From Kordia sp. (lineage in GTDB: Bacteria; Bacteroidota; Bacteroidia; Flavobacteriales; Flavobacteriaceae): a DNA stretch of 64,000 nt. The position numbers were made by a program, and so were the translations under genes. Under the pieces are notes generated by a model. The model searched no databases, was not told where the DNA came from, and saw nothing but the letters and a program-made list of their open reading frames with translations. The stretch covers positions 1 through 64,000 of the forward strand of contig NVVR01000010.1 in assembly GCA_002733415.1 (NCBI GenBank), written 5' to 3'. Positions 16,581 to 38,336 of this stretch are shown one piece after another (positions within the stretch are counted from its first letter, which is position 1; each line of letters starts with the position of its first letter).

Positions 16581-16640
16581 TCGTAGTATTTTTTGTAATA
16601 AAAGAAGTACATCACAAATATCCTATTTTACATAATATAA

Positions 16641-17494
16641 ATTATAGTTCAAATGCTATTATGAGTAAAATGGCGAATACGATAGTATTTTACATAATTA
16701 CAGATATCATGTCGTTAGACTTATATCGACAGTAATTATGTAACAGCCATTTTACGACCTACATATTATTAAACATTCGAAAGCTATAATTGTCTATTAT
16801 GTAAAATATCCCACAATGTTATACTTTCATTACTATCTGTAGTACTTGGGTGTTTGTACATTCATGGTTTTGTGCTTTCGTTTAATTTCAATATTCTGTA
16901 CAATGGTTCAGTATTTTTGAAATAAACGATTTATAAGAATGTTGCTAACTAAACATTTGCATCTATAATTAGTCATTATGTAAAATTGCCGCTCGCCAAA
17001 GGCGCTCGATTGTTTATTTAAAATAATTAGGCTTTGCCTTAATTTTTTAAAACTCAATTTGCCAACGCTTCCAGCCACCAAAAAAAGCAAAACTTTTTAG
17101 TTTCGTATTTAAGTTTAGAATTGATTAGATAATTAAGTTAACAAAAAAATAGAATGTTTTCGTGTAATTGCCGCAACAGTATAAAATTTTCCTACCGCAT
17201 TTATCCTAACTTTAAAATTTCTATACACTTGCTATATTTTCGTTACTACAAGAACCTTTAAATATTTTTCTCATTATCTTTTGTCTTAAAACAAAAGAAA
17301 CAAAAATTCAAGGCTACATATACTTTTGGAAACAATTAACGGCTCATTTCACTATATTTTAGAAAACTTTTGAACTTACTTAGTTTCTTTACAACTAAAA
17401 TTTAAAAAGCGAAAACCTAATTATATTCGGTTCTCGCTATCTAAAATATGTACGCTCCACTCACCTATTGTTTTAACCAAAATTCTATGAGGCC
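16641..17494 (+). repeat. Long intergenic repeat, copy A (854 bp)
   Basis: Non-coding repeat closely matching copy B. It starts at ATTATAGTTCAAATGC and ends at AATTCTATGAGGCC. Landmarks in order: a GTAAAATGGC...GCCATTTTAC inverted repeat, GTCTATTATGTAAAATATCC, the GC-rich block GCCGCTCGCCAAAGGCGCTC, TTTCTATACACTTGCTAT, AAACAAAAGAAACAAAAATT, and a terminal hairpin ending GGTTCTCGCT. It lacks the roughly 150-bp head found in copies B, C and D. It lies directly downstream of the LRR-Roc-COR gene, whose 3' end is at 17535. No believable coding frame is present. Confidence 0.85.
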
Positions 17495-17534
17495 ACTTAG
17501 ATTTGTTTTAATATTTATATCAGACGACATAATT

Positions 17535-20309
17535 TTAATTAATTTTAATAAGAAAATGATAAACTTCGGATATAACGTTATCTCTCTGATGCATTGAGAT
17601 AAGCACTTTTATATTTTCATTTTTACTTAAATCATGATTCAAACTATATGAAATAAGTTTTGCTTTTTCATTGTATTCTGGATTAGATGGTAAATCTTTT
17701 ATATAATTTATGTACTTTTCTGTAAATTCAGAAAATTTCTCAGTAAATGAATAAATAAGCATGAAGTTTCTTGATAGGCCACTTGTATCGTAATCTATTA
17801 ACAACTTATTTAAATGTGCAATAATTGTTTTATTTCCAGAGTTAAAAGAACCTAGTTTCATTGCTTCGATTATAGCTACTGGCATATGCTTACTATTCCT
17901 AACCATAATATCTAATTCACCACTATGCTTTTTAGCTATACCGCTTCTAGTTTGGTCTGTAATTGTATAACCTTTTGATCTAAGATTATCCGTGAAGTTA
18001 TCAGTTATTAAATCTTCTAAATTAGCAATATTTTTCCTTTCTAAAATCCTAGTTGATATTTCCAAGATATCATAAGTTAAATCTTCTTTAGTAAAACCAA
18101 AATTAGGTTCATACTTTTCATGAGACATATCATATGGCCCAATCAATTTAGAGAGGTTTATATTTTTTAAAAACAATTGACATTGGACTGTTTGTAAATT
18201 TGCTGTTCTAGCTCTTTCAAGATACTCATAATCAAACATGAAGGGGTCGTCTGATTTTATACACTCCTCACAATTGCATTGAATTGTAGTTTCATGATGT
18301 GGGAAATTTAATGTTTGGTTGATAATATCTAATTCTCTTTTAATAATACCTAATAAGGTAGCCTTAAGTTCACCAGATACTTTAATTTTTATAGTTCTTG
18401 AAAATTGATTACTTTCTATAATTCCAATTGAATTATTATGTTTTACGTATAAGCCGTTTTTCCAATAATAGTCTTCATAAATAGAATCTTTTAATCTTAC
18501 AATTAATCTAGAAAGTATTCCAGCTGGCATAAAATCATATTTATAAATTAAACTGATTGGGTCAATAATTTCAATTCCAGATTCTGGAGAACTTGGTTTT
18601 AATAGTTCAGGAACAATAAAAGTTCCTTTCCTAATCTCAAAACAAAGTTCAAATTTCTTCATCAATTCAATAATATAACTCATTTGTTGTGAATCGTATT
18701 CTGTAAGATGTTCCTCTAATATTTCATTATTAAACTCGCCAAAATTTCTTATAATATCATTTAAATCGAGTATTCGATAAACACAATTTGTTGCCCATTC
18801 TGGTTTTAAAAATACAACTGGTTTTAAAATAGGGTTATCAATAAAGTGAAGGAAAACTCCTAAGTCATGAAAGTAATTACTTAAGTGTTTCGATTCTGCC
18901 TTGTTTAATCCATAACTATGGCAAATATCAATGTAGCACTCATATGAAATATAGTTGTCTTTTAATTCTTCTAATTCTTCTCTTATATTACTCCATACTT
19001 CAGGAAGCTTATCTCCAATATGTGGGAGAGTTATTATATTAGCTTTAATACTTTCAATAAGCTGATCGATATTAGTTCCATTTTGAGCACTTACCGCCTT
19101 AAAAGCTTTAATATTAGGGAACTTTTCTTTCAATGATTTTTCGTCAATTTCTTTTATCCTCTCATCTATTTTATTAAGGACAATTATTACTGGAGAAGAA
19201 CTACTTAACATTTGGATAATATTTAACCAATAGTCAAAATTAATTAAACTTTCATCCTTTCTAGCCTCCCAAACAAATAAGTAAATAGACCTTTTTGTTA
19301 GAAAAAATTGATGTGTAGAATGATAAATTTCCTGCCCTCCAAAGTCCCATGCATTTAATCTTATTCTCTGTTTACCTTCTTTCTCTGTTTCACAATTTAA
19401 ATGCCATTTAAATATATCAATCCCCTCAGTAGTTAAAGTATCAGGGTTACTACCATTAATCATTTTATTAATTAAAAAGGTTTTTCCGACTGCTCCTTGT
19501 CCAACAACTAATAGTTTTGCTTCATTTAATCTAACTGATACACCTAAGTGTAGGTAATAGTTTAAAACACCTTTCAAACCTTGATTTGAAATTTCAATAG
19601 GTACATCTCCTATTGGGTTACCATTTAAATTTAATTCTTGAAGTTTACTAAGCTTTGCAAAAGATTTTGGCAATGATATAATATTATTACCTGTTAAATT
19701 TAAATAACGTAACTCTGTAAGCTCACAAATTTCTTCTGGTAATTCAGTTATATTATTAAAACTTAAATCTAATTGTCTAATAGTTTTAAGATTTTTAATT
19801 TCTTCAGGTAAAGTTTCAATTTTATTAGATGATAAATTAAGTGATTTTATTTTTTCAAGAAGTATAGATTTTGGAAATTTACTAATACCGTTATCACTTA
19901 AGTTCACTTCTTTCAATTTATCAAAAGAAGAAAAATCTACTCTAAGGGTGCCTAAATTATTTGATGATAAATCTATTTTCTCTAATGAATCAGAAAGTTT
20001 TTGCAGTCCAATTAAATCTGTAACTCTATTATCTTTAAAATTTAAAACTTTTAGCTTTTTACATAACGTAATTACTTCAGGAAATATAATAAATTTATTA
20101 TTACTTAAATTTAAGTTTTCTAACTGTTCAAAGTTTTCAAAAAAGTCGGGTAATTCAGTAATACTATTATTAAATAAATTTAAAAATTTTAATCTATTGA
20201 AATTACTTAATTCATGCGGTACTTCTTTAAGTCTACCACTCTCTAATCTTAAATCTTTAACTTTATTAGGGTTTTTAGGATTTATTTTCTGTTTAATGTC
20301 TGGCTTCAT
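17535..20309 (-). CDS. LRR-Roc-COR (ROCO) GTPase with C-terminal nuclease-like domain
   Basis: A 924-residue STAND-like protein. Residues about 15-245 are ten or so leucine-rich repeats. The Roc GTPase spans about 258-425: P-loop GQGAVGKT at 270-277, DFGGQ at 322-326, NKID at 389-392. A COR dimerisation region follows (about 435-690), with a CNCEEC cysteine cluster at 678-683. The last 180 residues hold a separate domain with GELDIMVRN (797-805) and VAIIEAMKL (811-819), which resembles the Asp...Glu core of PD-(D/E)XK-like nucleases, although the usual Lys spacing (E-x-K) is replaced by E-A-M-K. No kinase or TM segment is seen. It is flanked by direct repeats A and B and nothing else. A defence or other conflict role is inferred from architecture and setting. 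Confidence 0.85.
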   Translation of the reverse strand: MKPDIKQKINPKNPNKVKDLRLESGRLKEVPHELSNFNRLKFLNLFNNSITELPDFFENFEQLENLNLSNNKFIIFPEVITLCKKLKVLNFKDNRVTDLIGLQKLSDSLEKIDLSSNNLGTLRVDFSSFDKLKEVNLSDNGISKFPKSILLEKIKSLNLSSNKIETLPEEIKNLKTIRQLDLSFNNITELPEEICELTELRYLNLTGNNIISLPKSFAKLSKLQELNLNGNPIGDVPIEISNQGLKGVLNYYLHLGVSVRLNEAKLLVVGQGAVGKTFLINKMINGSNPDTLTTEGIDIFKWHLNCETEKEGKQRIRLNAWDFGGQEIYHSTHQFFLTKRSIYLFVWEARKDESLINFDYWLNIIQMLSSSSPVIIVLNKIDERIKEIDEKSLKEKFPNIKAFKAVSAQNGTNIDQLIESIKANIITLPHIGDKLPEVWSNIREELEELKDNYISYECYIDICHSYGLNKAESKHLSNYFHDLGVFLHFIDNPILKPVVFLKPEWATNCVYRILDLNDIIRNFGEFNNEILEEHLTEYDSQQMSYIIELMKKFELCFEIRKGTFIVPELLKPSSPESGIEIIDPISLIYKYDFMPAGILSRLIVRLKDSIYEDYYWKNGLYVKHNNSIGIIESNQFSRTIKIKVSGELKATLLGIIKRELDIINQTLNFPHHETTIQCNCEECIKSDDPFMFDYEYLERARTANLQTVQCQLFLKNINLSKLIGPYDMSHEKYEPNFGFTKEDLTYDILEISTRILERKNIANLEDLITDNFTDNLRSKGYTITDQTRSGIAKKHSGELDIMVRNSKHMPVAIIEAMKLGSFNSGNKTIIAHLNKLLIDYDTSGLSRNFMLIYSFTEKFSEFTEKYINYIKDLPSNPEYNEKAKLISYSLNHDLSKNENIKVLISMHQRDNVISEVYHFLIKIN

Positions 20310-20379
20310 AAAGATTATTTAATGAGAGAATATATTTATATCAAATATAATATAATTTAGCTATTATATCAATTATCAA

Positions 20380-21383
20380 TCATCCCATTCCACACACATT
20401 ATACTTCCCTCCTACGTCGTCGTATAAAAAGTGTTTCATTAACATTGTCAAAGAAGTTTTTGTTATTTTTTTTGAAGAAAACTATTGATTAGTAAACTTT
20501 GCTTTTACAAAGCAAAGTTACATAACGCGGAACATTATAGTTCAAATGCTATTATGAGTAAAATGGCGAATACGATAGTATTTTACATAATTACAGATAT
20601 CATGTCGTTAGACTTATATCGACAGTAATTATGTAATAGCCATTTTACGACCTACACATTATTAAACATTCGAAAGCTATAATTGTCTATTATGTAAAAT
20701 ATCCCATAGTAATTGTAGTTTCATTACTATCTGTAGTACCTGGGTGTTTATACATCCATGGTTTGTAGCTTTCGTTTAATTTCAATATTCCGTACAATGG
20801 TTCAGTATTTTTAAAATACGTGATTTATGAGAATGTTGCTAACTAGCATTTGCATCTATAATTAGTCATTATGTAAAATTGCCGCTCGCCAAAGGCGCTC
20901 GATTGTTTTATAAAACCTAAATGTTATCACATTTTATTTTACACACAATTTGCCAACACTTCCAGCCACCAAAAAAAAAGCAAAACTTTTTAGGTTGTAT
21001 TTATGGGTAGAATTTGATTGGATATTTACGTTATAAAAAAATAGAATGTTTTCATGTAGTTGTCGCAACAGTATAAAATTTTCCTACAACATCATCCTTG
21101 CTAAAAATTTCTATACACTTGCTATAATCTCGTTACTGTAATATCTTTTAAAAGTTTTTTCTTTATCTTTTGTCTTGAAACAAAAGAAACAAAAATTCAA
21201 GGCTACATATAATTTTGGAAACAATTTACGGTTCATTCCGCTATATTTTAGAAAACCTTTGAACTCCTTTAGTTTATAAATAGCTTAAATTAAAAAGCGA
21301 GAACCCAATTATATTCGGTTCTCGCTCTCTAAAATATGGATGCTCCACTCACCTATTGTTTTTGCCAAAATTCTATGAGGCCG
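20380..21383 (+). repeat. Long intergenic repeat, copy B with head (about 1.0 kb)
   Basis: The most complete copy. The head (20380-20533) starts near CACACACATTATACTTCCCT and carries the stem ACTTTGC-TTTTA-CAAAGCAAAGT, then ATAACGCGGAAC. The body (20534-21383) matches copy A closely from end to end, including the GCCGCTCGCCAAAGGCGCTC block and the terminal AATTCTATGAGGCC. It is in the same orientation as A, so A and B bracket the LRR-Roc-COR gene as direct repeats. The interval from 20322 to 21515 contains nothing else apart from the promoter regions of the flanking genes. Confidence 0.88.
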
Positions 21384-21515
21384 AAATAGATTTTTAAAAT
21401 TAAAACATTCACCTAACAAATAATAAACATCATATTAAAATATAGCTTATCTTTAATTGGATGATCATTGGATATCTCGACTAATTAGTTAAATCAATTA
21501 ACACTTAAGATACAT

Positions 21516-23744
21516 ATGGTAAAAAAAAGTGGTAAACATCATAAATTCGGAACGTTTTTAGGCGTTTATACTCCAAGTATATTGACCATTCTTGGTTTGA
21601 TCATGTATTTGAGGTTTGGTTGGGTTGTTGGAAATGTTGGTTATATAAATACAATCATCATAGTTTTAATGGCCAGTTCTATCACATTCATTACCGGCTT
21701 AAGCGCTTCGGCAATCGCTACCAATATAAAAGTGGGTGTTGGGGGCGAATATTATATGATTTCCAGAAGCCTTGGTCTTGAGCCCGGTGGCGCTATTGGG
21801 ATTCCCTTATACTTATGCCGTACACTAAGTGTTACCTTCTATTGTTATGGTCTTTCAGAGGCTATATTGGTTCTATGGCCGGAAAGTCAAGACCTTTTAT
21901 TTGGATATTCCTTACAAGGACTTACCATTATATTCATTATTTTAGTCACTATCCTATCGGGTAAAAGTGCCAAGCTAGTACTAAAATCACAAATCCCAAT
22001 ATTGATTATTGTAGGGGTTTCAATTCTTGCATTGATTATTGGTGTGCTTACAAAAGACCTCCACGCTCCTACTACGATTGCCTCTTATAGTACAGCGCCG
22101 GAAGGATTTTGGTATGTGTTTGCAGTTTTCTTTCCTGCTGTTACAGGATTTACGGCTGGAATTGGTTTAAGCGGGGATTTAAAAGACCCTCAAAAATCAA
22201 TTCCAAAAGGTACGCTTGCAGCTGTAGTTACGGGAGCAGTAATTTATCTTATTATTCCATTGCTCCTAGCAATTACTGGTGCGCTTACTTTAGAGCAAAT
22301 GGCAGATCCTGATGCAGGGGTTACTACCTGGACGCGATTAGCCGTTTTCGGACCTTGGATTATTTATCCTGCAATATGGGGAGCTGTGATTTCTTCTGCC
22401 TTCGGTAGTATATTGGGAGGGCCAAGAATACTTCAAGCTTTATCGATGGACGGATTGGCTCCAAAGTTCTTATCCAAGCTTTCTTCATCTGGGCAACCTA
22501 CTGTTGCTACCTGGATTAGCGGGGTCATTGCGATAGCTGCTGTTTTTCTTGGTGGATTAAATACAATCGCTCAATATGTTTCAGTACTGTTTTTAACACT
22601 CTATGTGGCTGTTAATGTGAGTGCAGCTGTTGAACAACTTATCAAAGAACCTTCTTATCGTCCAAAAATACACGTACCTTGGTTTGTTTCACTCCTAGGT
22701 GCTATTGCAGCAATGGTGGTAATGTGGTTGATTGATCCATTGGCCTTCGTTTTTGCTTTGGGACTTGAGTCAGTGATTCTATTTTATTTATTTAGTAAAA
22801 AACTGGAGCAGCAATGGGGTGATGCCTCTACTGGAATATGGATGCATATGAGTCGGTATGCGTTACTACGATTGAATACTAAAAAAGTTCATACTAGAAA
22901 TTGGCGTCCCATTATAATTTTATTTGTTCATGAATTAAAAGATCATATGCAATTAGTTAAATTCACTGAAATGCTCGGGCAAAACAGTGGGCTGTTAACG
23001 ATCTCTAAACTTGTCACTTTTGAAGATACTTCTGAATTAGATAGGCGTGATAAGATTGCATTTGAAATGCAAAAAGACCTTGAGGCAGAAGGCTTACAAG
23101 CTTTAACGGAAGTTAATGTGGTAAGCGATTTAAAACATGGTATGTATCAGGTGGCAGTCTCACATGGTACTGCGGGTGTAAAAACCAACACCGTTGTCTT
23201 TGGGTGGTCTAGTAACAAAGAGGGTAAAATACAAGAGTTACAAGTTATTCATGATCTCTCCAAGTCTAGGAAGAATATATTGATGGTCCATTGCAACAAA
23301 CCATTTACCACCAAATTAAATAAGCGAATTGATATTTGGTGGAGAGGAGAAAATAGAAATGGAGACCTAATGCTGCTTCTTTCCTATTTAATACGACTAA
23401 ATAGAAAATGGAAGAAGGCGGTAATCAACATTTTTTCTATTGTTAATTCTGAAGCTGAAAAATATGAGAGGGAACGTCATATACTGTTTTCTATTAAAGA
23501 AGCACGTATTGAAGCTGAAATTCATGTTTTACTTAAAGTAAGTGATGATATACTCGGAACCCTTATAAAGAAAAGTGCCAAAGCTGACCTTGTTTTTACT
23601 GGGTTAGCTCATGGCAATAGTGATTTCAATTCTCGTATAGAAATCATTGAACGTATTGCCAATAACTTGAAAGTAGTTGTTTTTGTACAGAACAACGGAA
23701 TGGAAAGTGAAATTCCGGTTATTTTTGGTTTAACAAAAACTTAA
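21516..23744 (+). CDS. SLC12-like cation-chloride cotransporter / APC-superfamily permease
   Basis: A 742-residue inner-membrane transporter. The first 430 or so residues hold about 12 membrane helices starting FGTFLGVYTPSILTILGLIM, with the SLC12-type sequence MYLRFGWVVGNVG in helix 1 and FFPAVTGFTAGIGLSGDLKD in helix 6. The remaining 300 residues are a soluble cytoplasmic domain, as in eukaryotic and bacterial cation-chloride cotransporters. The transported ion is not known. The gene looks more GC-rich than its neighbours and sits between repeats B and C with a universal stress protein gene, suggesting a transferred osmotic or ion-stress module. Confidence 0.85.
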   Translation: MVKKSGKHHKFGTFLGVYTPSILTILGLIMYLRFGWVVGNVGYINTIIIVLMASSITFITGLSASAIATNIKVGVGGEYYMISRSLGLEPGGAIGIPLYLCRTLSVTFYCYGLSEAILVLWPESQDLLFGYSLQGLTIIFIILVTILSGKSAKLVLKSQIPILIIVGVSILALIIGVLTKDLHAPTTIASYSTAPEGFWYVFAVFFPAVTGFTAGIGLSGDLKDPQKSIPKGTLAAVVTGAVIYLIIPLLLAITGALTLEQMADPDAGVTTWTRLAVFGPWIIYPAIWGAVISSAFGSILGGPRILQALSMDGLAPKFLSKLSSSGQPTVATWISGVIAIAAVFLGGLNTIAQYVSVLFLTLYVAVNVSAAVEQLIKEPSYRPKIHVPWFVSLLGAIAAMVVMWLIDPLAFVFALGLESVILFYLFSKKLEQQWGDASTGIWMHMSRYALLRLNTKKVHTRNWRPIIILFVHELKDHMQLVKFTEMLGQNSGLLTISKLVTFEDTSELDRRDKIAFEMQKDLEAEGLQALTEVNVVSDLKHGMYQVAVSHGTAGVKTNTVVFGWSSNKEGKIQELQVIHDLSKSRKNILMVHCNKPFTTKLNKRIDIWWRGENRNGDLMLLLSYLIRLNRKWKKAVINIFSIVNSEAEKYERERHILFSIKEARIEAEIHVLLKVSDDILGTLIKKSAKADLVFTGLAHGNSDFNSRIEIIERIANNLKVVVFVQNNGMESEIPVIFGLTKT

Positions 23745-24199: not shown

Positions 24200-25042
24200 A
24201 TGAATTCAATGAAAAAGATACTAATCCCAACTGATTTTTCGGAAAACGCATGGTCTTCATTGATCTATGCGGTTAATATGTTTAGAAAAGTTGAATGTAC
24301 GTTCTTTTTGCTGCATACAATCATTATGAGGGAAAGTTCTATAACCAATTTTTCTAATAACAAGCTTAACACTTCCAAAGAAAAGGCAAATAATGAATTA
24401 ATTAAATTAAAGAAAAATGCTGAAAATATAAAACTTAATCCCAATCATAAATTTGAAATTATATTAAGTTTTTATCACTTAGATGATGCTATAAATTTCA
24501 CTTCAGACAAACATGAAATTGATTTTACAATTATTGGGACAAAAGGTGCTAATAATACCATAGAATCTATTTTAGGAAGTAATACTACCAGGGTGATCAA
24601 AAATATTAAACAAATTCCTACCATAGTTGTACCGAATGAATACCAATTTAAGGGTTTAAATAGAATTGTTATGTTATCTGATTTAAATCATACAATGGAT
24701 GATACATTACTAGTACCTGTAAAGAAACTCTCGGAAGACAATAATTCTAAACTTAGTCTTTTACACCTTTCTAAAACAGAAAAACTAACAGACAATCAAA
24801 CCGAGGAATTAAAATCATTGGAAACTATCCTTTCTAAATATAATTTTAGTTTCCACCAGATTTCAAACTATACCAATAAAGCACAATATGTTAATGAGTT
24901 TATAGAAGAAGTAAGTGCTAATATGTTAGTTCTAATATATTATAGAAATACTGTTTTAGAAAAGTACTTTAAAAAGTCATTAACTACAACTATGTGTCAA
25001 AATCTTAAGACACCCATGTTAATACTCCCCAATAAAAATTAA
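24200..25042 (+). CDS. Universal stress protein, two tandem Usp domains
   Basis: A 280-residue protein with an N-terminal UspA domain (MKKILIPTDFSENAWSSL...) and a second, more degenerate copy from about residue 155 (LNRIVMLSDLNHTM...). The first domain keeps the ATP-binding pattern G-2x-G-9x-G-S (GTKGANNTIESILGS) near 113-127; the second does not obviously keep it. The tandem form is usual in Flavobacteriia. It probably modulates stress physiology in the cytoplasm. The neighbouring ion transporter in the same repeat-bounded segment suggests a common osmotic or ion-stress setting. Confidence 0.9.
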   Translation: MNSMKKILIPTDFSENAWSSLIYAVNMFRKVECTFFLLHTIIMRESSITNFSNNKLNTSKEKANNELIKLKKNAENIKLNPNHKFEIILSFYHLDDAINFTSDKHEIDFTIIGTKGANNTIESILGSNTTRVIKNIKQIPTIVVPNEYQFKGLNRIVMLSDLNHTMDDTLLVPVKKLSEDNNSKLSLLHLSKTEKLTDNQTEELKSLETILSKYNFSFHQISNYTNKAQYVNEFIEEVSANMLVLIYYRNTVLEKYFKKSLTTTMCQNLKTPMLILPNKN

Positions 25043-25338: not shown

Positions 25339-26254
25339 AACCATTTCACACACATTCCCACTTCTCTCCTATAGTCGCTTCGGGCAAAGAGTATTCCATT
25401 ACATTTTTTAAGAAACATTTGAGTAGAAAAAAATAAGAAACTGTAGTCGTTCAAACTTTGCTTTTGCAAAGCAAAGTTACATAACGCGGAACATTATAGT
25501 TCAAATGTATTATAATAGTTTATTATGGCTGTTTAACCATTTTAAGCTATAATTGTCTATTATGTAAAATATCCCAAGATGTTTTTAGTTTCATTAATAC
25601 CTGTAGTACTTGGGTGTTTATACATTCATGGCTTGTAGCTTTCGTTTAATTTGAATATTCTGTACAATGGTTCAGTATTTTTTAAATAAACGATTTATAA
25701 GAATGTTCACGTTTATCATTTGCATCTATAATTAGTCATTATGTAAAATTGCCGCTCGCCAAAGGCGCTCGATTGTTTTATAAAACCTAAATGCTAATGC
25801 ATTTTATTTTACACACAATTTGCCAACGCTTCCAGCCACCAAAAAAAGCAAAACTTTTTAGCTTATTAATATGGCCAGTATTAATTGGATATTCTCGTTT
25901 AAAAAGTTTTCAAAATGTTTTCGTGTAGTTTCCGCAACAGTATAAAATTTCCCTACCGCATTATCCTTGCTTTAAAATTTCTATACACTTGCTATAATCT
26001 CGTTACTATAATAACCTTCAAAATATTTTCTCATTATCTTTTGTCTTAAAACAAAAGAAACAAAAATTCAAGGCTTCATATACTTTTGGAAACAATTAAC
26101 GGTTCGTTACACTATATTTTAGAAAACCTTTGAATTAACTTAGTTCATTTATAGCTTAAATTAAAAAGCGAGAACTCAAGTACATTTGGTACTCCCTATC
26201 TAAAATATGGTCGCTCCACTCACCTATTGTTTTAACCAAAATTCTATGAGGCCG
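25339..26254 (+). repeat. Long intergenic repeat, copy C with head (internal deletion)
   Basis: The head starts near ACCATTTCACACACATTCCC and includes the stem around CTTTGCTTTTGCAAAGCAAAG and ATAACGCGGAAC. The body starts at 25493 and lacks about 80 bases that in A and B hold the GTAAAATGGC inverted repeat. It then follows A and B to AATTCTATGAGG, ending at about 26254. Same orientation as A and B. Its right end abuts the broken end of an amine oxidase pseudogene. Confidence 0.85.
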
Positions 26255-26262
26255 TTTAAAAG

Positions 26263-27081
26263 AAAATATTTACTGGATAAATAATTCTAGATATTGATGT
26301 CCTTTTCCTATCAATTCTTTAGCAAGAATTTTTCCAGATTCAGATATACCAGCTTAAAAAAAATCTCTCAAGATTGATTTTGCTTTCGTCTTTTCACTTG
26401 GAGTTGAGTTATCATTTTTAAAACTATTTAATGCTTCAACAAGTTCTTGCCTTTTTTCTTTGCTATCAATATCATCATAAAAAAGTTTTAAAACCTCCCG
26501 ATCATTTTCTTTTAACTCATGATAATGTGGGTTTTCAGGAAAGTCTTCTAGTATTTGCCATGCTTCACCAGCACTTACTGTTGATAAAAATGGTGCCTGA
26601 AAACCAACGGTGTCTACCATCATTTTTAAACACTCTTGTGAGTATCCCATCTCTTTTAATAAACCGCCTAATTGCCATTTGTTTAGTGTTACACCATTCC
26701 ATTTAAAGTCAAGGCGAAACTTTTGCCAAAACTCTGGAGTAGGATTTGAAGGCGCTCCATCAACACCATTAGCTTTTAAAATTCGGTTATAAATAACACT
26801 TAAAATGGTACCTGGGTTTTGATTTTGTTCAGCTGGTGCAAGATCATATAACTGTCTCCAAATCGCATACCTCCTTCTTCATCTCTAACCACAGAATCAT
26901 TACCTTTATCTGTCTTTATTTTTATTTAATCAGTATCTAAACGTCCGCCAGTTCTGTTTAAACGTTCTAGAATAGTGACTTTTAATTTTGAATTCTTTTT
27001 AAGAAGACGCCAAGCTGCATACAGTCCAGATACTCCTGCTCCTACAATAATAACATCTGATGTTTTTGCAATGTTTTTCAT
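26263..27081 (-). pseudogene. Flavin amine oxidase fragment with nonsense, frameshift and C-terminal truncation
   Basis: ATG 27081 starts MKNIAKTSDVIIVGAGVSGL, a perfect FAD-binding Rossmann start (GAGVSG), and continues to ERLNRTGGRLDTD. There a TAA stop occurs; the same frame resumes with KTDKGNDSVVRDEEGGMRFG. A frameshift then moves the homology to YDLAPAEQNQNPGTILSVIY and on to the intact-looking stretch at 26354-26650. A second stop follows and the gene ends at the edge of repeat C, so the C-terminal FAD-binding half is missing. The intact amine oxidase at 44103-46241 is a different, longer member of the superfamily. Confidence 0.85.
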
Positions 27082-27898
27082 TTTGAATGTATTTTTTATT
27101 GGTTATAAGTTTATAATTATTGCGTATTAAAATTGTATTATACAATTAAAGAAAACTGTATCTAATCGGCTCTTTCACTATACTTAAGAAGTAAAATTGG
27201 TTTCTAAAATATAGCTACAGTAGTTTAATTATATTTCTTGTTTTTAATGGAATAAATTTATTAATTGCCTTTAAAATATTTAAGCGTATAAATACCTGTT
27301 TTAAAGTACTTATACGCTTAAATATTGTAGTTATAAATATGAAAAGTTTTTGAAAGAATGTGAAATTAAAAACTTAAATTTTACCGAATACAGCTCATTT
27401 TTATTGAAGAATTGAATAAAAAAAGGCATCAATTTTAAACATAATAATATAGATATTTGCCCCTTTTGGGATACATGTTTTTAGGAGTAAGTAGTCGATT
27501 ACACAAAAAAAAATCAGAATTCAATCTTAAACCCCTCAAACATTAGAGTTTGAAATTAGTTTATATGCAATTTAAATTTTACTAGTTAGCTTAACTATTA
27601 CTTCGTTATCATATCCTGAAAAACGAAATGCATTTAAATTTCGATAGTCTATTATTACTATTGGTGTATTACTAGAAGCTACTGATTATTTTTATTTTAA
27701 AGTTATGCAAGATTCTGTTTGCATCTAGATACAGATTAGTAATATGTTGTTAATTAATTTAAAGTTTTAAGTGCTATTTATAATATTATAAAAGGATATT
27801 CTTATCATGAATTCACCAAGTCAAATAAACTTATAATATTCAATAGATAAGATAATTGTCAGGTCCTAAATATAATCGTTCAATTCATCTGTATTTAT
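27082..27898. other. Gene-less AT-rich interval with one strong inverted repeat
   Basis: No convincing complete gene. A 17-bp perfect inverted repeat (27275-27291 with 27310-27326, arm AATATTTAAGCGTATAA, 18-base spacer) lies about 200 bases upstream of the amine oxidase pseudogene start and has no T run. On the minus strand near 27590-27705 a short open stretch reads TPIVIIDYRNLNAFRF before a stop; it may be the tail of a lost gene. Confidence 0.5.
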
Positions 27899-27940
27899 CT
27901 AAAACACTTTTTAGAGAAAATGCTCTAAAGAGTGTTTTAG
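27899..27940 (-). terminator. Terminator of the sigma/anti-sigma operon
   Basis: An 18-bp stem (27899-27916 with 27923-27940, one T:G wobble, loop AAAATG), 10 bases beyond the anti-sigma stop codon. There is no long T run on the minus strand. Confidence 0.7.
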
Positions 27941-27950
27941 CCTTTGTTTA

Positions 27951-28766
27951 CTATTTTAAATCTTTTTTAATTTTTAAAGCCTGTTTATAATTATAGTTAT
28001 TTTTATTTGATAAAATAACATTTAAAGTCTCTTGTGTTTTTCTCTTATTATCTTGCTTTAGATATACCAATAACTTATACCAATTACCTCTTGAACTTGC
28101 TATTGTATCTAGTTGTATAAATACATCAAAAACTTGTAAGGCTTCATTATAATTGCCATTAAAAAAATATGAAGCCCCTACTTTTAATAAGCTATAAGCA
28201 TGAAACGTTTCACTCCCATTTTGCATAATTTCATAATGACTTGTAATAGCATTATAGTCTTTAGATTCATATAATTTTTCTATTATGGCAACTTCATCTC
28301 CTTTTTCAATTAAGGATGGAATGCCTTCCCAGTCGGCATAATTATTATAATGATCTTCTAGGGAATCATTTCCTAACAAATAAGGAAGATTAATACTCGC
28401 AAACAACAAAAAAGAAGCCGCTATTGCTACAAAATAAAATTTCTTACGTTTGTTTAGCTTCTTATTAATTACATTATAATACTCTTCTTCTGCTTTTTTA
28501 ACATTAATAGACACATTTTGCAACGTTGCACTTTTCAATTCCTTTTTAATATTTTGCAATGCTTCTCCATGACTTCTTTTATCTAAAGTATGCCAATCTT
28601 TTTCGTTAAAAGATTCTTTCAATGACATATAAATAAATACCTCCTCCTTTAATATTTCATCTGCTTCCATTCTACTTTCAAAAGATAACTTATCTTTCAA
28701 GGACATCATGTCATTTATATATGCATCTATCATTTCATGCATTTTGTCTTCTTTATTTGAATTCAT
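27951..28766 (-). CDS. Membrane anti-sigma-like protein with C-terminal TPR domain
   Basis: A 271-residue single-pass protein. The N-terminal 108 residues are soluble and resemble the cytoplasmic part of Bacteroidota anti-sigma proteins (MIDAYINDMMSLKDKLSFESRM...), without a zinc motif. A single TM helix spans about 109-131 (KKFYFVAIAASFLLFASINL). The extracytoplasmic C-terminal 140 residues contain TPR-like pairs (LLKVGASYFFNGNYNEALQV). It starts on the last base of the ECF sigma gene (1-base overlap), which indicates coupled expression. I infer that it holds the sigma factor inactive and that its TPR domain senses or is cleaved outside the cytoplasm. The family call rests on context and topology. 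Confidence 0.75.
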   Translation of the reverse strand: MNSNKEDKMHEMIDAYINDMMSLKDKLSFESRMEADEILKEEVFIYMSLKESFNEKDWHTLDKRSHGEALQNIKKELKSATLQNVSINVKKAEEEYYNVINKKLNKRKKFYFVAIAASFLLFASINLPYLLGNDSLEDHYNNYADWEGIPSLIEKGDEVAIIEKLYESKDYNAITSHYEIMQNGSETFHAYSLLKVGASYFFNGNYNEALQVFDVFIQLDTIASSRGNWYKLLVYLKQDNKRKTQETLNVILSNKNNYNYKQALKIKKDLK

Positions 28767-29320
28767 TATGCTTGTTTTTTATAACGGAAATCCGCTTTTA
28801 TTAATTGTACAACTTTGGCTCTACATTTATAAACACGCTGTCTAACTACATTTATTGAGTTATACGACAAGTCTTTCATTATTTCTTCATAGCTCATTCC
28901 ATTAAAGTAAATACTCAGTATTTCTTTACAATTATCAGATAATAATTGAAATTTCTCTTGGTAAAACTCTAAGTGTTTTTGCTCTATAGTAAAAGTAGCC
29001 AAACTATCTTCTTTATTAACTAGTGGTAATACTCCGTCTTTCATTACCCATTCTTTTTTATTTTTTAATGTACTTCTCCAAATATTCTTACATATAGTGA
29101 ATAAATAGGCCTCAAAAGAGGCTATTTGTAAAGGAGACTCTCTATGCTTCATTATTAAATACATTAATGCGTCATGAAAAACATCTTGTACATCCTCATG
29201 CCTGCCATTATTTCTCAATATAAAAACCTGTATTTTAGGGTGAAAACGATTATATATATCCAATATTATCTTGTTATCGCCATCTATTAGAGCTTGTAAA
29301 TACTTCTCGCTTTCTTGCAT
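28766..29320 (-). CDS. ECF-type RNA polymerase sigma-70 factor
   Basis: A 184-residue group IV sigma factor. Region 2 is at about 25-90 (DVQDVFHDALMYLIMKH, FEAYLFTICKNIWRS) and region 4 at about 125-178 (LSDNCKEILSIYFNGMSYEE, then a helix-turn-helix ending VRQRVYKCRAKV). No region 1.1 or 3 is present. It is the first gene of the sigma/anti-sigma operon, transcribed away from the S8 peptidase gene with 279 bases between start codons. A GGGTAATG promoter-like element lies in that interval pointing toward the S8 gene. I infer that this sigma factor reads the GGGTAATG-N16-ACTWG elements. Confidence 0.93.
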   Translation of the reverse strand: MQESEKYLQALIDGDNKIILDIYNRFHPKIQVFILRNNGRHEDVQDVFHDALMYLIMKHRESPLQIASFEAYLFTICKNIWRSTLKNKKEWVMKDGVLPLVNKEDSLATFTIEQKHLEFYQEKFQLLSDNCKEILSIYFNGMSYEEIMKDLSYNSINVVRQRVYKCRAKVVQLIKADFRYKKQA

Positions 29321-29368
29321 AGTTTTATCAGAGTAAAGTCAAAAATAATTGAAATTTATTTAATTTGC

Positions 29369-29400
29369 GGGTAATGTTTTTAATTATTTTATACTAGGTA
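29369..29400 (+). promoter_or_regulatory. Putative ECF promoter upstream of the S8 peptidase gene
   Basis: GGGTAATG at 29369-29376, a 16-base spacer, then ACTAGG at 29393-29398. The same -35-like octamer and spacing occur at 33993 and 35877. The predicted start would leave a leader of nearly 200 nt before ATG 29600, longer than at the other two sites. Confidence 0.6.
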
Positions 29401-29599
29401 GTATTATGACAATTTTCAAGATAATTTTATATAACCTATTTTTTTAATATAAATGTATAATATGAACATATCAAGAAATCAAACCATATGCCCTCCTGAT
29501 TTCAACCATACCATTGTAAAGATAATGACTCACACTTAGTCAATAAAAAAACAAATATTATAGACTAAACTAATAATAACAATACTAAACCTTATAATA

Positions 29600-30892
29600 A
29601 TGAAAAAATTAATAATACTTGTACTATCTTTTTCTTTTCTTTTTTTTGCTTGTTCTGATCTAGATAGTGATGGTTTTATGTATAATAGCCATTCCATTGA
29701 AAATGTAAGAATTAAACCCTCTCGATTAGGTAATAAAAAGCCTAAAAACATCCCTGTACTTTCTAAAACAGAACTTATAATACAATATGTACCTGGAACT
29801 ACAGCAATACAAAAATCTAATTTAAGAGGATTATATAATGTAATATCTTATGAAGTTTGTGCCTCTTGTATGGACTTTAATCTTGAAAAATGGAATTTTG
29901 GACCTGATGTAGATTTAGAATCTAAACTGGGATCTATAATGCCTGAAGAGGAAGATGGTGGTATTGAAGGTATTATTAATGTTGATAAGGAGTTTTATTT
30001 TGAGTATGAAACAGAAAACTATACATTAACAGGTGGTACAGGTAACACATCATATACTTCTAAAATGGTAAGCCCTAGTACTAATTCTATTACTATAGCA
30101 GTTTTAGATACAGGGATAGATGTTAATTACTCAGTATTTGATAGAAATAGATTTTTACATAATGGTAGTACAGATCCTATAAATGAAATTGTTTCTGGAT
30201 GGGACTTCGTTAATGATGATGACAATTGCTACGATGATTATTTAGATTTACATGGGACAGCAGTAAGTAGTATTATTAGCAACTCTTTAGACCAACTAAA
30301 CATTCCTCATAACATTCTTCCAGTAAAAGTATCTAACTCGGAAGGTAAATCATCACGTTTTGAAGTAATTTGTGGAACTGCTTTTGCTATAGAGCGTGCA
30401 GATATTATAAATATGAGTTTAGGTTGGTATGATTATGATGGTAGTGGAATAGATTTTGCGGATGATATTTTACAAACCATTATTGCGTCACACATGCACG
30501 ATGTATTAGTTGTAACTTCTGCTGGTAATTGGGCAAATAATAACGACGGTTGGGGTTCTGATTTTAAACATTATCCTTCTAACTATGATTTAAAGAATGT
30601 TACTGCTATAGCTGCTAGTAATGCTAACAGCACAGATATAGCTTACTTTTCTAATTACGGGCAGTCTACTGTAGATTTCTTTGCCAAAGGACAAGAAATC
30701 CCGTTTGATAGCACCTATATAAACGGAACCTCGTTCTCTGCTCCGGTTGTTTCTGCTGTAGCGGCTAAATATTTATATAATTCAGGAATGTCACTAAGCC
30801 CCAGTGGGATTATATCTAAACTTAATTTAGGAGGAGATTATTTATATACTTCTAAACCCACTTTCTACTCTAAATTGATAGAGCTAGATTAA
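29600..30892 (+). CDS. S8 (subtilisin-family) serine peptidase, lipoprotein
   Basis: A 430-residue exported protease. The signal peptide has a lipobox ending FFAC (Cys18). A propeptide-like region follows to about residue 160. The catalytic triad is complete: Asp170 in VLDTGID, His218 in DLHGTAV, Ser378 in NGTSFSAP, with the oxyanion Asn310 in SAGN. No T9SS tail or extra domain is present, so it is probably a membrane-anchored protease on the extracytoplasmic side. It is divergent from the sigma/anti-sigma pair, preceded by the GGGTAATG element, and followed by its own terminator and then the CHAT gene. A role in anti-sigma cleavage or effector maturation is inferred. Confidence 0.93.
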   Translation: MKKLIILVLSFSFLFFACSDLDSDGFMYNSHSIENVRIKPSRLGNKKPKNIPVLSKTELIIQYVPGTTAIQKSNLRGLYNVISYEVCASCMDFNLEKWNFGPDVDLESKLGSIMPEEEDGGIEGIINVDKEFYFEYETENYTLTGGTGNTSYTSKMVSPSTNSITIAVLDTGIDVNYSVFDRNRFLHNGSTDPINEIVSGWDFVNDDDNCYDDYLDLHGTAVSSIISNSLDQLNIPHNILPVKVSNSEGKSSRFEVICGTAFAIERADIINMSLGWYDYDGSGIDFADDILQTIIASHMHDVLVVTSAGNWANNNDGWGSDFKHYPSNYDLKNVTAIAASNANSTDIAYFSNYGQSTVDFFAKGQEIPFDSTYINGTSFSAPVVSAVAAKYLYNSGMSLSPSGIISKLNLGGDYLYTSKPTFYSKLIELD

Positions 30893-30899
30893 ATTTGGC

Positions 30900-30939
30900 A
30901 ACAAACGTAAATCTAGTAAGTTTACGTTTGTTACTTTTA
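30900..30939 (+). terminator. Terminator after the S8 peptidase gene
   Basis: A perfect 12-bp stem (30900-30911 with 30921-30932, arm AACAAACGTAAA), 7 bases after the stop, followed by ACTTTTAT. It may only partly separate the S8 and CHAT genes. Confidence 0.8.
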
Positions 30940-31125
30940 TTATAAACAATCCCCAAATAGGGAATTTAATAAGCTTAAAAATTATATACAGTAACTAGAA
31001 TACACTATTTAAAAGAAAAATTTAAAGTTAATTTAGTCAAGTTTAAATATTATGAGCATAATATTTATCTTGCAATCATTTTTTTATTAAATCAAATATT
31101 TGTTTTAATTCAATATTCTTTAAAT

Positions 31126-33849
31126 ATGTCTTTGTTTATAAGCCGGCTATTATCTTGTACTATAATACTTAGTTGCTTTAGTAGCATAGCACAAAAAAAA
31201 AATCACCCAAAAGTTTTATCCATAAAAAAAGACAAGTCATTAAATAACTATGAAAAAACAGCAAAAACAAGAGCTCTTTTAATAGATTCTGATTTTTTAA
31301 TTAATATTGAAAATATTAGTGATGTATATCATCAAATAGGAACATATTTATATTATAATAAAGACTATAATCAAGCAATATTAGAACTACAAAAAGCTAT
31401 TGATATTAGAGAAACAACTCCAGAATTAAATTATAAACTGGACAATAGCTTATATAATATTGCTCAACAATATCGTTTTATAAATAACATTGAGCAACAC
31501 GAATATTTTTTAAATAAAATAATTAAAAATGGTAACCACAACAGGTATACTTATAAAGCATACAATAAGTTAGGAGAGTTATTTATAATAAATGGAGATT
31601 ATTTTAGAGCCTTACAATATTTTGAAATAGTAATTAACTCATTTCCTAGCTATAATGATCAAAAAATTTTAATACTAGCATACAAATACGCTATTACAGC
31701 ATACAGCTATATTAATAATTTATCGAATGATGACTTGATTAAAGTTGAGTTGTATTCTCAGAAACTTGAAAGTATTGATCAATCAATAAACATTGGCTTA
31801 AATAATAATTTGGCTAAGATTTATAAAGGAATTGGTCATAAAGAAAAAGCTATTGAGTACTTAAAAAAAATACTACCCATAGCATTAAAAAGGAAAAGAT
31901 ATAACGATGCTGGAACTATAAGCCATAATATTGCCGTATTATACTCTGAATCAAAAAATAATGCACTAGCGAATAAATACTATAAAAAAGCATTAGGAAT
32001 TACTAATAATATAATAACTATAGCTGACACTCATTACAATCAGGGATTTTATTTACAAACTAAAACTTCTATAGACAAAAATGCGTATTATGATAAGGCA
32101 TTAAATATTGCTCTTAAACTTAAAGATACTATCAAACCTCTTGACTATTTACCTTCCATTGATGATATTAAAGCGTCACAATATAAAATAGACATATTAG
32201 GCTATTTAATTAATAAAGCTAATAATTTTGTTATAGCTTATAATGAAGAACATAAAAGAATATACTTAGAACACTCTAAAAGCACTTTATATTTAATTGA
32301 CCAATTGGTATCCTTAATTAGATTTGAAAGTTCCAGTAATGACTCTAAACTCTTCTGGATTAACAAAGGGGTGGATTCTTATATGTTAGCAGTAAAAGTG
32401 TGTTATTTATTAAATGACACTGCTGCGGCTTTTTATTTTATGGAAAAAAATAAATCACTACTTCTGTTAGAAAACTTAAATGCTACTCATGAAAAAGAAA
32501 GGTTAAAAATTCCTGATTCTATATTAAAAAGAGAATTTAATTTGCGTTATGCTATCTTATCCATAGAAAATAAACGTCATAAAACTTCTAATAATAATAT
32601 ACAAACTAAATTATACTTAGAAAAAGAAAATACTTATGCTCATTTTTTAGATTCAATTAGAACACTTTACCCTACGTATTTTAATTCTAAGAAAGAACCT
32701 GAAATTTTGTCATTAGAAGAGCTTAGAAAAAGGCATGTTTCCAAAACGACTAATTATATAGAATATATTCTAAACGATGAATTAGGCTATGGATTTTTTT
32801 GCAGTGAAGGGCAATCAATACTTTTTGAAATAAAAAACATTCCCGAATTATTAAATGCAATTGACACTTTAAAGACATTACTAAACCACCCTATTATTTA
32901 TAGTAAAGATAATAAGCTATATAACGAAACAGCTTTTTCTATTTATAAAAAAGTGTTTCCGTTTAGAAACTCCCTACAACTAATTTCTAATAAAAAATTA
33001 GTTGTGGTACCAGACTATAAGCTTAAAAGTTTACCTTTTGAAGCCTTAATTACCAAACCAAACAACACAGATTTTATTCAAGGTTATTTAATTAAACAAA
33101 ATATTGAAGTCTCTTACTATCAATCTGCCTCTGTTTTTAAGCAGATTGAAAAACAAAATCGTTCAGCTAAAAAGCAACTTATAGCTTTTGCTCCTATTGT
33201 ATTTAATTATGATTCGTTACCAAGTTTACAACGTAGTAAAACAGAAATGGACCATATTTCCTCCTTACTTCCTACTACGCTATTAAAAAATGAAAAAGCA
33301 ACAACTACTGCCTTTATTTCTAGTTTAAACGATTATGATATTGTACATATAAACACGCATGCTGGTATTAATGATGATAACGAACCATGGTTAGCTTTTT
33401 CAGATAAAAAAATACACCTTAAAGAATTATATGGTATAAATAATCAAGCTAATTTAGTAATATTAGATGCTTGCAAAAGTGCTTCTGGAAAACTCTTAAA
33501 AGGTGAAGGTGTTATGAGTTTATCTCGAGGATTTTTCTATAGTGGTTCAAAAAGTGTTATTGCATCGCTATGGAATGTTAATGAAAAGTCTAATAATAAA
33601 ATTTTAATTTCTTTTTATAATGGTATAAAACAAGGGCAAACAAAATCCAAAGCTTTACATAATGCCAAATTAAAATATTTAAGTAATCACCAAAACAGTG
33701 AATTATCTCCATATTTTTGGTCCTCACTTATACTTACTGGTGATACAAAAGCCATAGATTTCAATAAGACCTCCAATCTATACCTTATTCTTATTGGAGT
33801 CATATTCCTTATTCTAATTCTTTTTTTGAAGAAATTAAAAGTCTACTAG
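31126..33849 (+). CDS. TPR-CHAT cysteine peptidase with signal peptide and C-terminal membrane anchor
   Basis: A 907-residue protein. A signal peptide at 1-23 ends SSIAQ. TPR-like repeats fill about 50-400 (YNQAILELQKAIDI, KEKAIEYLKKILPIAL, NALANKYYKKALGI). A helical linker follows, and the CHAT caspase-like domain occupies about 590-875. The catalytic dyad is His745 (HINTHAG) and Cys783 (ILDACKSASG); SLSRGFFYSGSKSVIASLW and SPYFWSSLILTGD are family signatures. One TM helix (LILIGVIFLILILFL) plus a short basic tail KKLKVY close the protein. The topology puts both TPR and CHAT domains outside the cytoplasm, on the same side as the anti-sigma TPR domain. Its target is unknown; the anti-sigma protein or the lipoproteins encoded downstream are candidates. 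Confidence 0.92.
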   Translation: MSLFISRLLSCTIILSCFSSIAQKKNHPKVLSIKKDKSLNNYEKTAKTRALLIDSDFLINIENISDVYHQIGTYLYYNKDYNQAILELQKAIDIRETTPELNYKLDNSLYNIAQQYRFINNIEQHEYFLNKIIKNGNHNRYTYKAYNKLGELFIINGDYFRALQYFEIVINSFPSYNDQKILILAYKYAITAYSYINNLSNDDLIKVELYSQKLESIDQSINIGLNNNLAKIYKGIGHKEKAIEYLKKILPIALKRKRYNDAGTISHNIAVLYSESKNNALANKYYKKALGITNNIITIADTHYNQGFYLQTKTSIDKNAYYDKALNIALKLKDTIKPLDYLPSIDDIKASQYKIDILGYLINKANNFVIAYNEEHKRIYLEHSKSTLYLIDQLVSLIRFESSSNDSKLFWINKGVDSYMLAVKVCYLLNDTAAAFYFMEKNKSLLLLENLNATHEKERLKIPDSILKREFNLRYAILSIENKRHKTSNNNIQTKLYLEKENTYAHFLDSIRTLYPTYFNSKKEPEILSLEELRKRHVSKTTNYIEYILNDELGYGFFCSEGQSILFEIKNIPELLNAIDTLKTLLNHPIIYSKDNKLYNETAFSIYKKVFPFRNSLQLISNKKLVVVPDYKLKSLPFEALITKPNNTDFIQGYLIKQNIEVSYYQSASVFKQIEKQNRSAKKQLIAFAPIVFNYDSLPSLQRSKTEMDHISSLLPTTLLKNEKATTTAFISSLNDYDIVHINTHAGINDDNEPWLAFSDKKIHLKELYGINNQANLVILDACKSASGKLLKGEGVMSLSRGFFYSGSKSVIASLWNVNEKSNNKILISFYNGIKQGQTKSKALHNAKLKYLSNHQNSELSPYFWSSLILTGDTKAIDFNKTSNLYLILIGVIFLILILFLKKLKVY

Positions 33850-33922
33850 TACACAAATAAATTACATTAAAATACTTCCTTAACAATATTGAATAGTTAA
33901 TCTTCTATTTTCAATATATGCT

Positions 33923-33966
33923 ATTTTTCATGTGTTAAAAAAAGTTTTTTTTGACACATGAAAAAT
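33923..33966 (+). terminator. Long bidirectional hairpin after the CHAT gene
   Basis: A 22-bp stem (33923-33944 with 33945-33966, a T:G and a terminal G:T) whose inner arms are A-rich and T-rich; outer arm ATTTTTCATGTGT. It lies 73 bases after the CHAT stop and 26 bases before the next GGGTAATG element, so it insulates the peptidase genes from the exported-protein genes. Confidence 0.75.
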
Positions 33967-33992
33967 TAATGTTTCTTTTTCTGAAAAATTAC

Positions 33993-34022
33993 GGGTAATG
34001 AAATTCCAATTTCAATACTTGT
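33993..34022 (+). promoter_or_regulatory. Putative ECF promoter of the exported lipoprotein pair
   Basis: GGGTAATG at 33993-34000, a 16-base spacer, then ACTTGT at 34017. Downstream the leader carries TAGATCGATC, then CCGAAAAAC and TTAAAAGAGTA, before ATG 34098. The same elements in the same order follow the site at 35877. Confidence 0.7.
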
Positions 34023-34097
34023 GTGTAGATCGATCTAAATTATACGTGCAAGCCGAAAAACGTAACTTAAAAGAGTAGGTAAATTATAACACATATT

Positions 34098-34721: not shown

Positions 34722-34820
34722 TATAAAATAAAACAATTTTATAAAAACAAATTGGTACAAATCAAAGGAGTACCCAAAAAAAACTTTAACAGAGTTGGAA
34801 ATTAATTCACAACAAATATT

Positions 34821-35780: not shown

Positions 35781-35800
35781 CTAAGAATTTATACTACCCT

Positions 35801-38322: not shown

Positions 38323-38336
38323 TATAATCTATACAG

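Follow-up and report, generated by a model that had tools for sequence, protein, structure and literature searches.

The window analysed here is a 64,000-nucleotide stretch of Kordia sp. (Flavobacteriaceae) covering positions 1 to 64,000 of contig NVVR01000010.1 (C89; 85,310 bp) in a 3.72 Mb, 97-contig draft genome (GCA_002733415.1). It contains a gene for an LRR-Roc-COR protein placed between two repeats, A (16641-17503) and B (20495-21392). An earlier reading made from the letters alone (the sequence-only reading) described a single gene between nearly identical direct repeats, and proposed that it is defence cargo in an exchangeable slot which recombination between A and B could delete or circularise. 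The arrangement itself holds: both repeats lie on the + strand, their similarity is far beyond chance (E-value 6e-309) and the sole gene separating them is 17535-20309 (-), encoding 924 amino acids (aa). The repeats are less alike than first described: they share 88% identity overall, a figure that rises to 99% across the opening 173 bp and falls to 66-75% in some stretches.

A and B were also considered as a private pair, which was rejected on finding 19 matched pieces in the same genome. They are two of seven copies on C89, some of them partial, of a non-coding element termed E, which measures ~850 bp here and lies on the + strand in every copy on the contig. A near-full copy C (25454-26257) comes after genes for a permease and a stress protein, partial copies occupy 40683-41158 and 43501-43874, and two more lie beyond the window at 71.4 kb and 80.6 kb of C89. 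Further pieces are found on contigs C79, C51 and C40. The features of the locus are given below, where LE and RE denote two sharply conserved ends and an open reading frame is abbreviated ORF.

16624-16651, no strand assigned: putative dif (site alpha), TATTTTACATAA-TATAAA-TTATAGTTCA read on the + strand, 11-6-11, at the left end of the array and adjoining A
16642-17503, + strand: E copy A (repeat A of the earlier reading), with RE at 17441-17494
16784-16804, + strand: inverted dif-like site 1 of copy A
16963-16983, + strand: inverted dif-like site 2 of copy A
17535-20309, - strand: cargo 1, LRR-Roc-COR STAND-type protein, 924 aa
20495-20546, + strand: LE of the second unit, hairpin AACTTTGCTTT-TAC-AAAGCAAAGTT and then the core
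20518-20540, + strand: core in the LE of the second unit, TTACATAA-CGCGGAACA-TTATAG, attP-like/attR
20535-21392, + strand: E copy B (repeat B of the earlier reading), dif-like sites at 20677-20697 and 20856-20876, RE at 21329-21382
21516-23744, + strand: cargo 2a, SLC12/amino acid permease
24200-25042, + strand: cargo 2b, universal stress protein (Usp)
25457-25505, + strand: LE of the third unit, core at 25477-25499
25494-26257, + strand: E copy C, ~110 bp missing, dif-like sites at 25547-25567 and 25726-25746, RE at 26200-26253
26354-39524, no strand assigned: cargo 3, nine ORFs
40683-41158, + strand: degenerate LE and E, model positions 3-86 and 346-707
43501-43874, + strand: degenerate LE and E, model positions 5-355

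The order is therefore dif-E-[LRR-Roc-COR]-LE-E-[permease, Usp]-LE-E-[nine ORFs]-LE-(partial E), continuing rightwards. Decay in this array increases distally from dif; in other genomes decay is less ordered. Between the two degenerate E copies that lie furthest from dif (L001:7945-15968, C89 ~71.9-80.0 kb) there is what appears by eye to be an arginine biosynthesis operon.

The 28-mer at the left end, which resembles dif by comparison with the E. coli site, is most likely the chromosomal dif, judging from its distribution and its position relative to strand composition. A search with 22 fixed bases and at most two mismatches found it in 166 of 199 family genomes (a single match in 154 and more than one in 12, counted from the table), and it yields a family-wide dif consensus. 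Among the matches listed, the centres are mostly TATAAA, TATTAA or TGTAAA. A control search with the backward pattern matched 4 genomes. GC skew at third codon positions (GC3) was followed in six sampled complete genomes. It passes from + to - in the sampled interval holding the site or the array in G066, G245, G138, G150 and G017, and in G193 the whole and intergenic skew change sign at the site interval, with GC3 following only one window later. On C89, the blocks rightwards of the site have GC3 skews between -0.20 and +0.05, against +0.13 on its left. A chance product of 6e-8 for these skews is not relied on, as it assumes one sign change per genome and a widened G193 interval. In earlier work, dif was predicted for 19 Bacteroidetes genomes (PMC3025954) and shown in some Flavobacterium, where PhiCjT23-like prophages are reported to be flanked by dif motifs (PMC9719478).

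Near-copies of the site also occur in the non-coding DNA of two kinds of ssDNA phage, whose records, from Cellulophaga and from an ascidian gut, both carry the annotation Microviridae. Both have the TATAAA centre, with 93.5% identity over 31 nt in the one named simply as Microviridae (E-value 6e-5) and 96% over 26 nt in Cellulophaga phi12:2 (E-value 2e-3); the search returned 198 records at an E-value of at most 10, mostly at chance level. A single viral contig (L250, IMGVR_UViG_3300012147_000238, 2194-2221) matches the arms of the 28-mer exactly. A few genomes (G032:C9, G097:C43/C54 and G236:C10) have additional dif-like 28-mers whose centres differ (AACGGG, GAATTA), perhaps Xer sites of phages or plasmids. 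On an Adhaeribacter swui plasmid (L255, NZ_CP055154.1) a dif-like 35-mer (88.6%) adjoins WYL, multiubiquitin and ThiF genes.

Element E is widespread in the family. Copy B used as the query matches 16 of 30 genomes, the Kordia genome included, at an E-value of at most 0.001, and 45 of 249 family genomes at 1e-25 or below. Strong copies in complete genomes are grouped in arrays of uniform orientation. In 34 copies cut out with both ends, E is non-coding and measures 570 to 1,210 bp. It starts with the XerC arm, TTATAGTxCAAATG. LE consists of a hairpin plus GTTACATAACGCRGWACATTATAGTxCAAA, and RE reads CTAAAATATGxACGCTCxxxTCxCCTATTGTTTTxxCCAAAATTxTATGAGGCC. The body between them has more conserved blocks, two of which are the inverted dif-like sites. 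The LE pattern was found in at least 117 stretches of the species-genome collection; 79 of the 80 matches listed carry recognised Flavobacteriaceae names (genera include Maribacter, Aquimarina, Lacinutrix, Polaribacter, Tenacibaculum and Zobellia) and one is an unplaced Bacteroidia metagenome-assembled genome. E was detected to the right of LE in 33 of the 80 LE loci from named genomes.

Two other identities for E were rejected. A plasmid or phage origin was set aside as E has no match in either collection and the LE pattern no match in viral contigs. E is not a group II intron either: the one reverse transcriptase/maturase ORF, in a unit of G150, sits in an insert of ~2.1 kb, and E copies with no ORF are common. 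That ORF (L033:5692-7197) lies within the E body, and a neighbouring G150 unit has a shorter ORF (162 aa) at the corresponding place. A terminator scan did not return a hairpin inside E among its results.

The position of the junctions indicates how the repeats may have come to flank a gene. A and B match rightwards from the XerC arm TTATAG and differ leftwards: left of this arm, A has the left arm and centre of dif, and B has the GTTACATAA-CGCGGAACA of LE. Arrays in other genomes likewise read dif-[E-cargo-LE]n, with a dif-like core in each LE. Among 27 array loci, 16 start with a canonical site whose left arm is unaltered or has a single change, and the first site was not found in 6. The remaining five (G009_C32, G150_b, G150_c, G086_b and G082) start with a degenerate site in which the left arm has decayed and the 6-bp centre differs, as in the left half AATTTGACATAA-GAACAA, while the right arm TTATAGTACA is unchanged; their genomes carry a canonical site elsewhere. 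The last LE is bare, with no E after it, in 10 of 20 loci with LE. In four arrays that were compared, the sequence after the last TTATAG leaves that of the first E within a few to 20 bases. A half-site, TTATGTAAAATAGA, adjoins the cargo end in several arrays, with LE at the opposite side, and is not conserved in the Kordia window. As judged from sequence, these regular junctions would be the expected residue of repeated entry of E-cargo-LE-half units at the border of the XerC arm, with dif rebuilt leftward each time.

The same repeats could be nothing more than homology, with RecA-dependent recombination between E copies, for instance after natural transformation, inserting, swapping or deleting cargo, and with dif as a tolerated place near the terminus. 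Within the Kordia genome, E copies keep 85-88% identity across stretches of hundreds of bp, enough for some exchange; E trees depart from those of the genomes, as exchange would yield; and the arrays examined have no internal recombinase. Even so, we consider this account unlikely. The divergence of A and B begins at the XerC-arm border and not within E, the five insertions elsewhere retain a dif-like arm, 6 bp and arm with only the left half replaced, and many E copies of the same genome are just 60-75% identical. The junctions thus indicate site-specific integration rather than recombination between A and B alone, which was the route of mobility first proposed.

E copies do not track genomes. 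Their identity is 91-92% among G009, G008, G082 and one Aquimarina, and 60 to 88% between copies of one genome. For G009 and G150, identity is 91% in E and 79% in the adjoining gene, and for G009 and G086 the values are 64% for E and 84% for that gene, which was named by eye and is presumably leuB. This discordance bears on the idea that E is a resident element of the terminus, such as an accessory Xer or segregation sequence, which was duplicated and between whose copies genes were gathered by ordinary insertion. Two further dif-like sites and the conserved blocks within E would suit such a role, as would the fact that 16 of 27 loci have it at a canonical site. A resident element is nevertheless improbable, given that E is more alike across genera than leuB, that strong copy-B matches are confined to 45 of 249 family genomes where the 28-mer is found in 166 of 199, that only marginal traces of E lie near the 28-mer of G017 and G082, and that arrays also occur at secondary sites.

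A dedicated integrase would be a further way to build arrays. Proteins with a tyrosine recombinase domain (PF00589, E-value of at most 1e-10) were sought in 10 genomes; several are encoded elsewhere in each, and none within array coordinates in any. A classical integron cassette array, with intI and attI beside it, was rejected on this result. An integron-like system with an unlinked integrase, in which E and LE act as attI and attC, could draw on those PF00589 proteins. It would also agree with the orientation of the cargo, whose genes mostly end beside RE, like cassette ORFs at attC: of 29 closed RE-to-LE slots, 24 have a minus-strand ORF nearest to RE (p 5e-4). At LE loci, a left ORF is present in 69 of 80 and on the minus strand in 52 of those 69 (p 3e-5). 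Such a system appears highly improbable, since E lies between the units, 21 of 27 loci have a dif-like landing site, arms and spacing are Xer-like, and no array-specific integrase was found in the genomes searched, the closest being one PF00589 gene ~7 kb from the G150_c array.

The locus is thus quite probably a tandem array of non-autonomous units that exploit the Xer machinery, stacked at dif and often carrying defence genes. This reading is built on the dif-like site near the skew terminus, the array geometry, the position of the junctions, the differences in cargo and the discordance between E and a core gene. Like integrative mobile elements exploiting Xer (IMEX), the units appear to be seated at dif, to have no recombinase of their own and to carry a dif-like attP with dif rebuilt on one side. 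Xer catalysis, a free form of the unit and its way of travelling are inferred. A unit would comprise E, cargo and an LE-half (the hairpin, then GTTACATAACGCGGAACA), and the free unit, circular or single-stranded, would carry LE as attP. Host XerC/XerD may join it to dif at the border of the central region and the XerC arm, an integration that would rebuild dif leftward and leave LE rightward. As dif is rebuilt on the left, a next unit could enter dif again, giving dif-E-cargo-LE-E-cargo-LE-chromosome.

The closest model for the chemistry is CTXphi, an IMEX of the kind formed by Vibrio filamentous phages, which integrates at dif through host Xer with no integrase of its own, as the units here would (PMC4246890, PMC5357621). 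Its two inverse attP sites lie 90 bp apart, fold as single-stranded DNA (ssDNA) and are joined by XerC (PMC4246890). LE and the inverse sites in E likewise make up oppositely oriented dif-like sites with unequal centres, of 12 and 5-7 bp in CTXphi (PMC4246890) and of 9 (LE) and mostly 7 bp (inverse sites) here; the inverse sites in E lie ~50 to 360 bp from LE. Because inverted dif-like sites near LE correspond to the layout of CTXphi attP(+), an XerC-first and possibly ssDNA integration is the likeliest chemistry. In predicted folds, LE or alpha pairs with site 1 or 2 over at least 12 bases in 31 of 38. Such pairing is expected by construction, as both sites are dif-like, and is no proof of use. 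The units differ from CTXphi in their long conserved non-coding E, their defence or metabolic cargo, their spread across a bacterial family and the lack of a known vehicle.

Other systems share parts of this arrangement. Legionella LME-1 is a mobile element that enters the terminus dif, so that dif stays intact on the upstream side and is modified on the downstream side, as here; it uses the single recombinase XerL, and the parts of the report consulted describe no stacked cassettes with a common non-coding body (PMC9765430). The pdif/xrs modules of Acinetobacter plasmids likewise place single accessory genes or small operons between Xer sites. These are plasmid-borne, with mostly inverted short sites, and reportedly do not form modules that can be excised, in contrast to the chromosomal units with an 850-bp body described here (PMC7399989, PMC11705084). 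The PhiCjT23-like ssDNA prophages of Flavobacterium are reportedly dif-flanked and occur in the same bacterial family as the arrays; these small phages are complete and have genes for capsid and replication (PMC9719478), none of which were recognised in the slots scanned. Phage, Rep and conjugation genes were not recognised among the slot proteins scanned (29 with Pfam and 50 with PADLOC), a scan that applied no library of phage hidden Markov models.

Several observations weigh against the array reading. Regarding the address, the Kordia genome has a second 28-mer match (C9:3161) with two mismatches and a different centre, the skew windows were denser near most arrays, G245 and G017 have a weak skew, and extra small GC3 sign changes occur in G245 and G150. 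Arrays are also found off the terminus, at 0.74 and 1.09 Mb in G150. The geometry is not always clean: in 10 of 20 loci E, whole or in part, comes after the last LE (in two of these, G000_C89 and G014_C35, the array runs towards the contig end), and bare LEs occur at five places within arrays. As to mechanism, the 9-bp LE centre (CGCGGAACA) is unlike the TATAAA of dif, so ordinary XerCD exchange should fail and an XerC-only or folded-ssDNA route has to be assumed. Six of the 38 folds show no pairing, including that of LE with site 1 in the lowest-energy folds of copies B and C. The PF00589 gene near the G150_c array lies on its left side. No vehicle is known, the phage and plasmid collections having no match to E and the viral contigs none to the LE pattern.

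The defence part of the reading meets objections of its own. Among the unselected LE-proximal proteins, the first 20 of 35 eligible, 8 match PADLOC at an E-value of at most 1e-10, compared with 3 of 20 random ORFs (one 2,010-aa ORF, L121, was skipped because of size), a difference that is suggestive though not significant (one-sided p 0.08); the eight include a WYL regulator and one weak match to a helicase. Non-defence cargo is common, with metabolic or envelope genes in many slots. By eye these include agmatinase/arginine decarboxylase-like genes (G148) and oxidoreductases (G008), and Pfam identifies a GH31 protein (G150_b) and a TcA-like gene (G193). Since this cargo is real, 'defence array' names a tendency. 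The dif array of G193 carries two giant ORFs as cargo (L041/L042), one of them for the Tc-toxin A-like protein.

Known or candidate defence systems are nevertheless present in the slots of relatives. A selected set of 30 proteins in or adjoining slots, chosen for size and interest and with several from one slot, gave 17 PADLOC matches at an E-value of at most 1e-5 (5/10, 8/10 and 4/10 by batch). They include a type I restriction-modification system with a PtuA-like ATPase, C5 and Eco57I-type methylases, two IetS subtilases, PDC-S60 with an nSTAND protein, a caspase, a QatA-like KAP ATPase, PDC-M60A, Tmn, a Pycsar cyclase and PDC-M33A, and Pfam adds NACHT and nSTAND proteins. The earlier guess of defence cargo in an exchangeable slot accordingly stands at the level of the slot, as repeat-bounded slots of relatives hold known and candidate defence systems. 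It is less secure for the LRR-Roc-COR protein itself, which has no PADLOC match, and for the slots as a class, given the enrichment and the metabolic and envelope cargo described above. Slot proteins that PADLOC does not match become candidates for new systems, among them the LRR-Roc-COR protein and the STAND/AAA pair of G086_b. The G086_b array (L046) encodes nSTAND/AAA proteins of 1,316 and 1,772 aa together with a 332-aa protein, none of which match PADLOC. In cargo 3 of the Kordia array, a 430-aa ORF looks subtilase-like by eye and a 907-aa ORF TPR-CHAT-like; the 907-aa protein gave no match in PADLOC.

The LRR-Roc-COR protein unites LRR (~1-240), Roc (265-382), COR-A (436-570) and COR-B (585-723) on a single chain according to Pfam, the combination that defines ROCO proteins. 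Its GTPase motifs are intact (VVGQGAVGKT, WDFGGQE, NKID) and its ~200 C-terminal residues, outside COR, have no Pfam match, both of which agree with the sequence-only reading. Bacterial LRR-Roc-COR structures (PDB 6hlu, 8r4b, 4wnr and 3dpu) are alike in LRR, Roc and COR (E-values 6e-76 to 5e-57). The Kordia protein differs from them by its C-terminal domain, which it shares with homologues on plasmids of Spirosoma and Photobacterium. The Spirosoma homologue is 44.5% identical over 98% of the query and has transposase genes nearby, and that of Photobacterium is 30% identical over 86% of the query and lies inside a Tn7-like type I-F CRISPR locus. In this Photobacterium toruni plasmid (L254, NZ_CP101696.1) the gene is flanked by a TniB gene and TniQ/Csy2 genes.

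The C-terminal domain (~740-924) is conserved and a candidate effector. D785, Q786, G790, K794, G797, E798, D800, I813, I814, E815, H832, K835 and Y840-T842 are invariant across three aligned homologues. At the level of a guess, the motifs GExDI...IIE in this three-row alignment could be read as PD-(D/E)XK and the domain as a nuclease-like effector. AlphaFold modelling of the domain from a single sequence gave a mean predicted local distance difference test score (pLDDT) of 44. The domain has no match among PDB sequences, neither it nor the whole protein has relatives in the viral contigs searched, and it is present in 2 of 298 family genomes, the Kordia genome counted. The LRR-Roc-COR GTPase with its C-terminal domain would most likely act as a sensor-effector against phages. 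Against this role, the protein has no PADLOC match at an E-value of at most 0.01, so the defence function is one that we infer. A literature search returned no paper combining 'Roc-COR', 'bacteria' and 'anti-phage'.

Comparison of the locus between genomes supports turnover of the cargo, as the exchangeable-slot guess had anticipated. A full-length copy of the LRR-Roc-COR gene was not found in 58 relatives; the homologue in G005 matches query residues 93-698, piecewise. A conserved two-component gene pair (proteins 63-64% identical) is separated from dif by ~53 kb in the Kordia genome and by ~2.8 kb in the congener G002. The left-flank MFS gene of G002, 78% identical, is ~13 kb from dif versus 0.4 kb here, so the left side has been altered too. 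A right-flank gene is common to G245 and G150 (67% at the protein level), where it adjoins arrays of the same kind with different cargo. The guess of an exchangeable defence slot was thus a good one. What it had missed was the location of the slot at dif and the fact that A and B are copies of an element found across the family; the address and probable machinery are new here. No report of defence arrays at dif in Flavobacteriaceae was recognised in a literature search whose coverage excludes most subscription journals and all preprints and which is weak proof for that reason.

A broader and more tentative interpretation, which we regard as possible though short of probable, is that E forms a family-wide, integrase-free cassette platform at dif. 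Its ~850-bp body would provide a CTXphi-like folding attP, the linked genes would arrive as ssDNA, perhaps by natural transformation or as satellites of ssDNA phages, and XerC would stack the units with the newest nearest dif. Antiphage systems, many of them undescribed, would then be gathered at the very site used by ssDNA phages for lysogeny. On the main reading, too, chromosome dimer resolution would be linked to the turnover of defence genes, and the movement of cassettes that lack an integrase or recognised phage genes becomes testable. Together, dif and the LE, E and RE motifs offer a sequence-defined address for seeking unknown defence systems across Flavobacteriaceae.

A site based on a known RNA was also considered and rejected, as an Rfam scan of the window yielded just two DUF805b RNAs (RF02914). 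These lie at 34043-34081 and 35922-35959, each shortly 5' of an ORF that looks secreted by eye.

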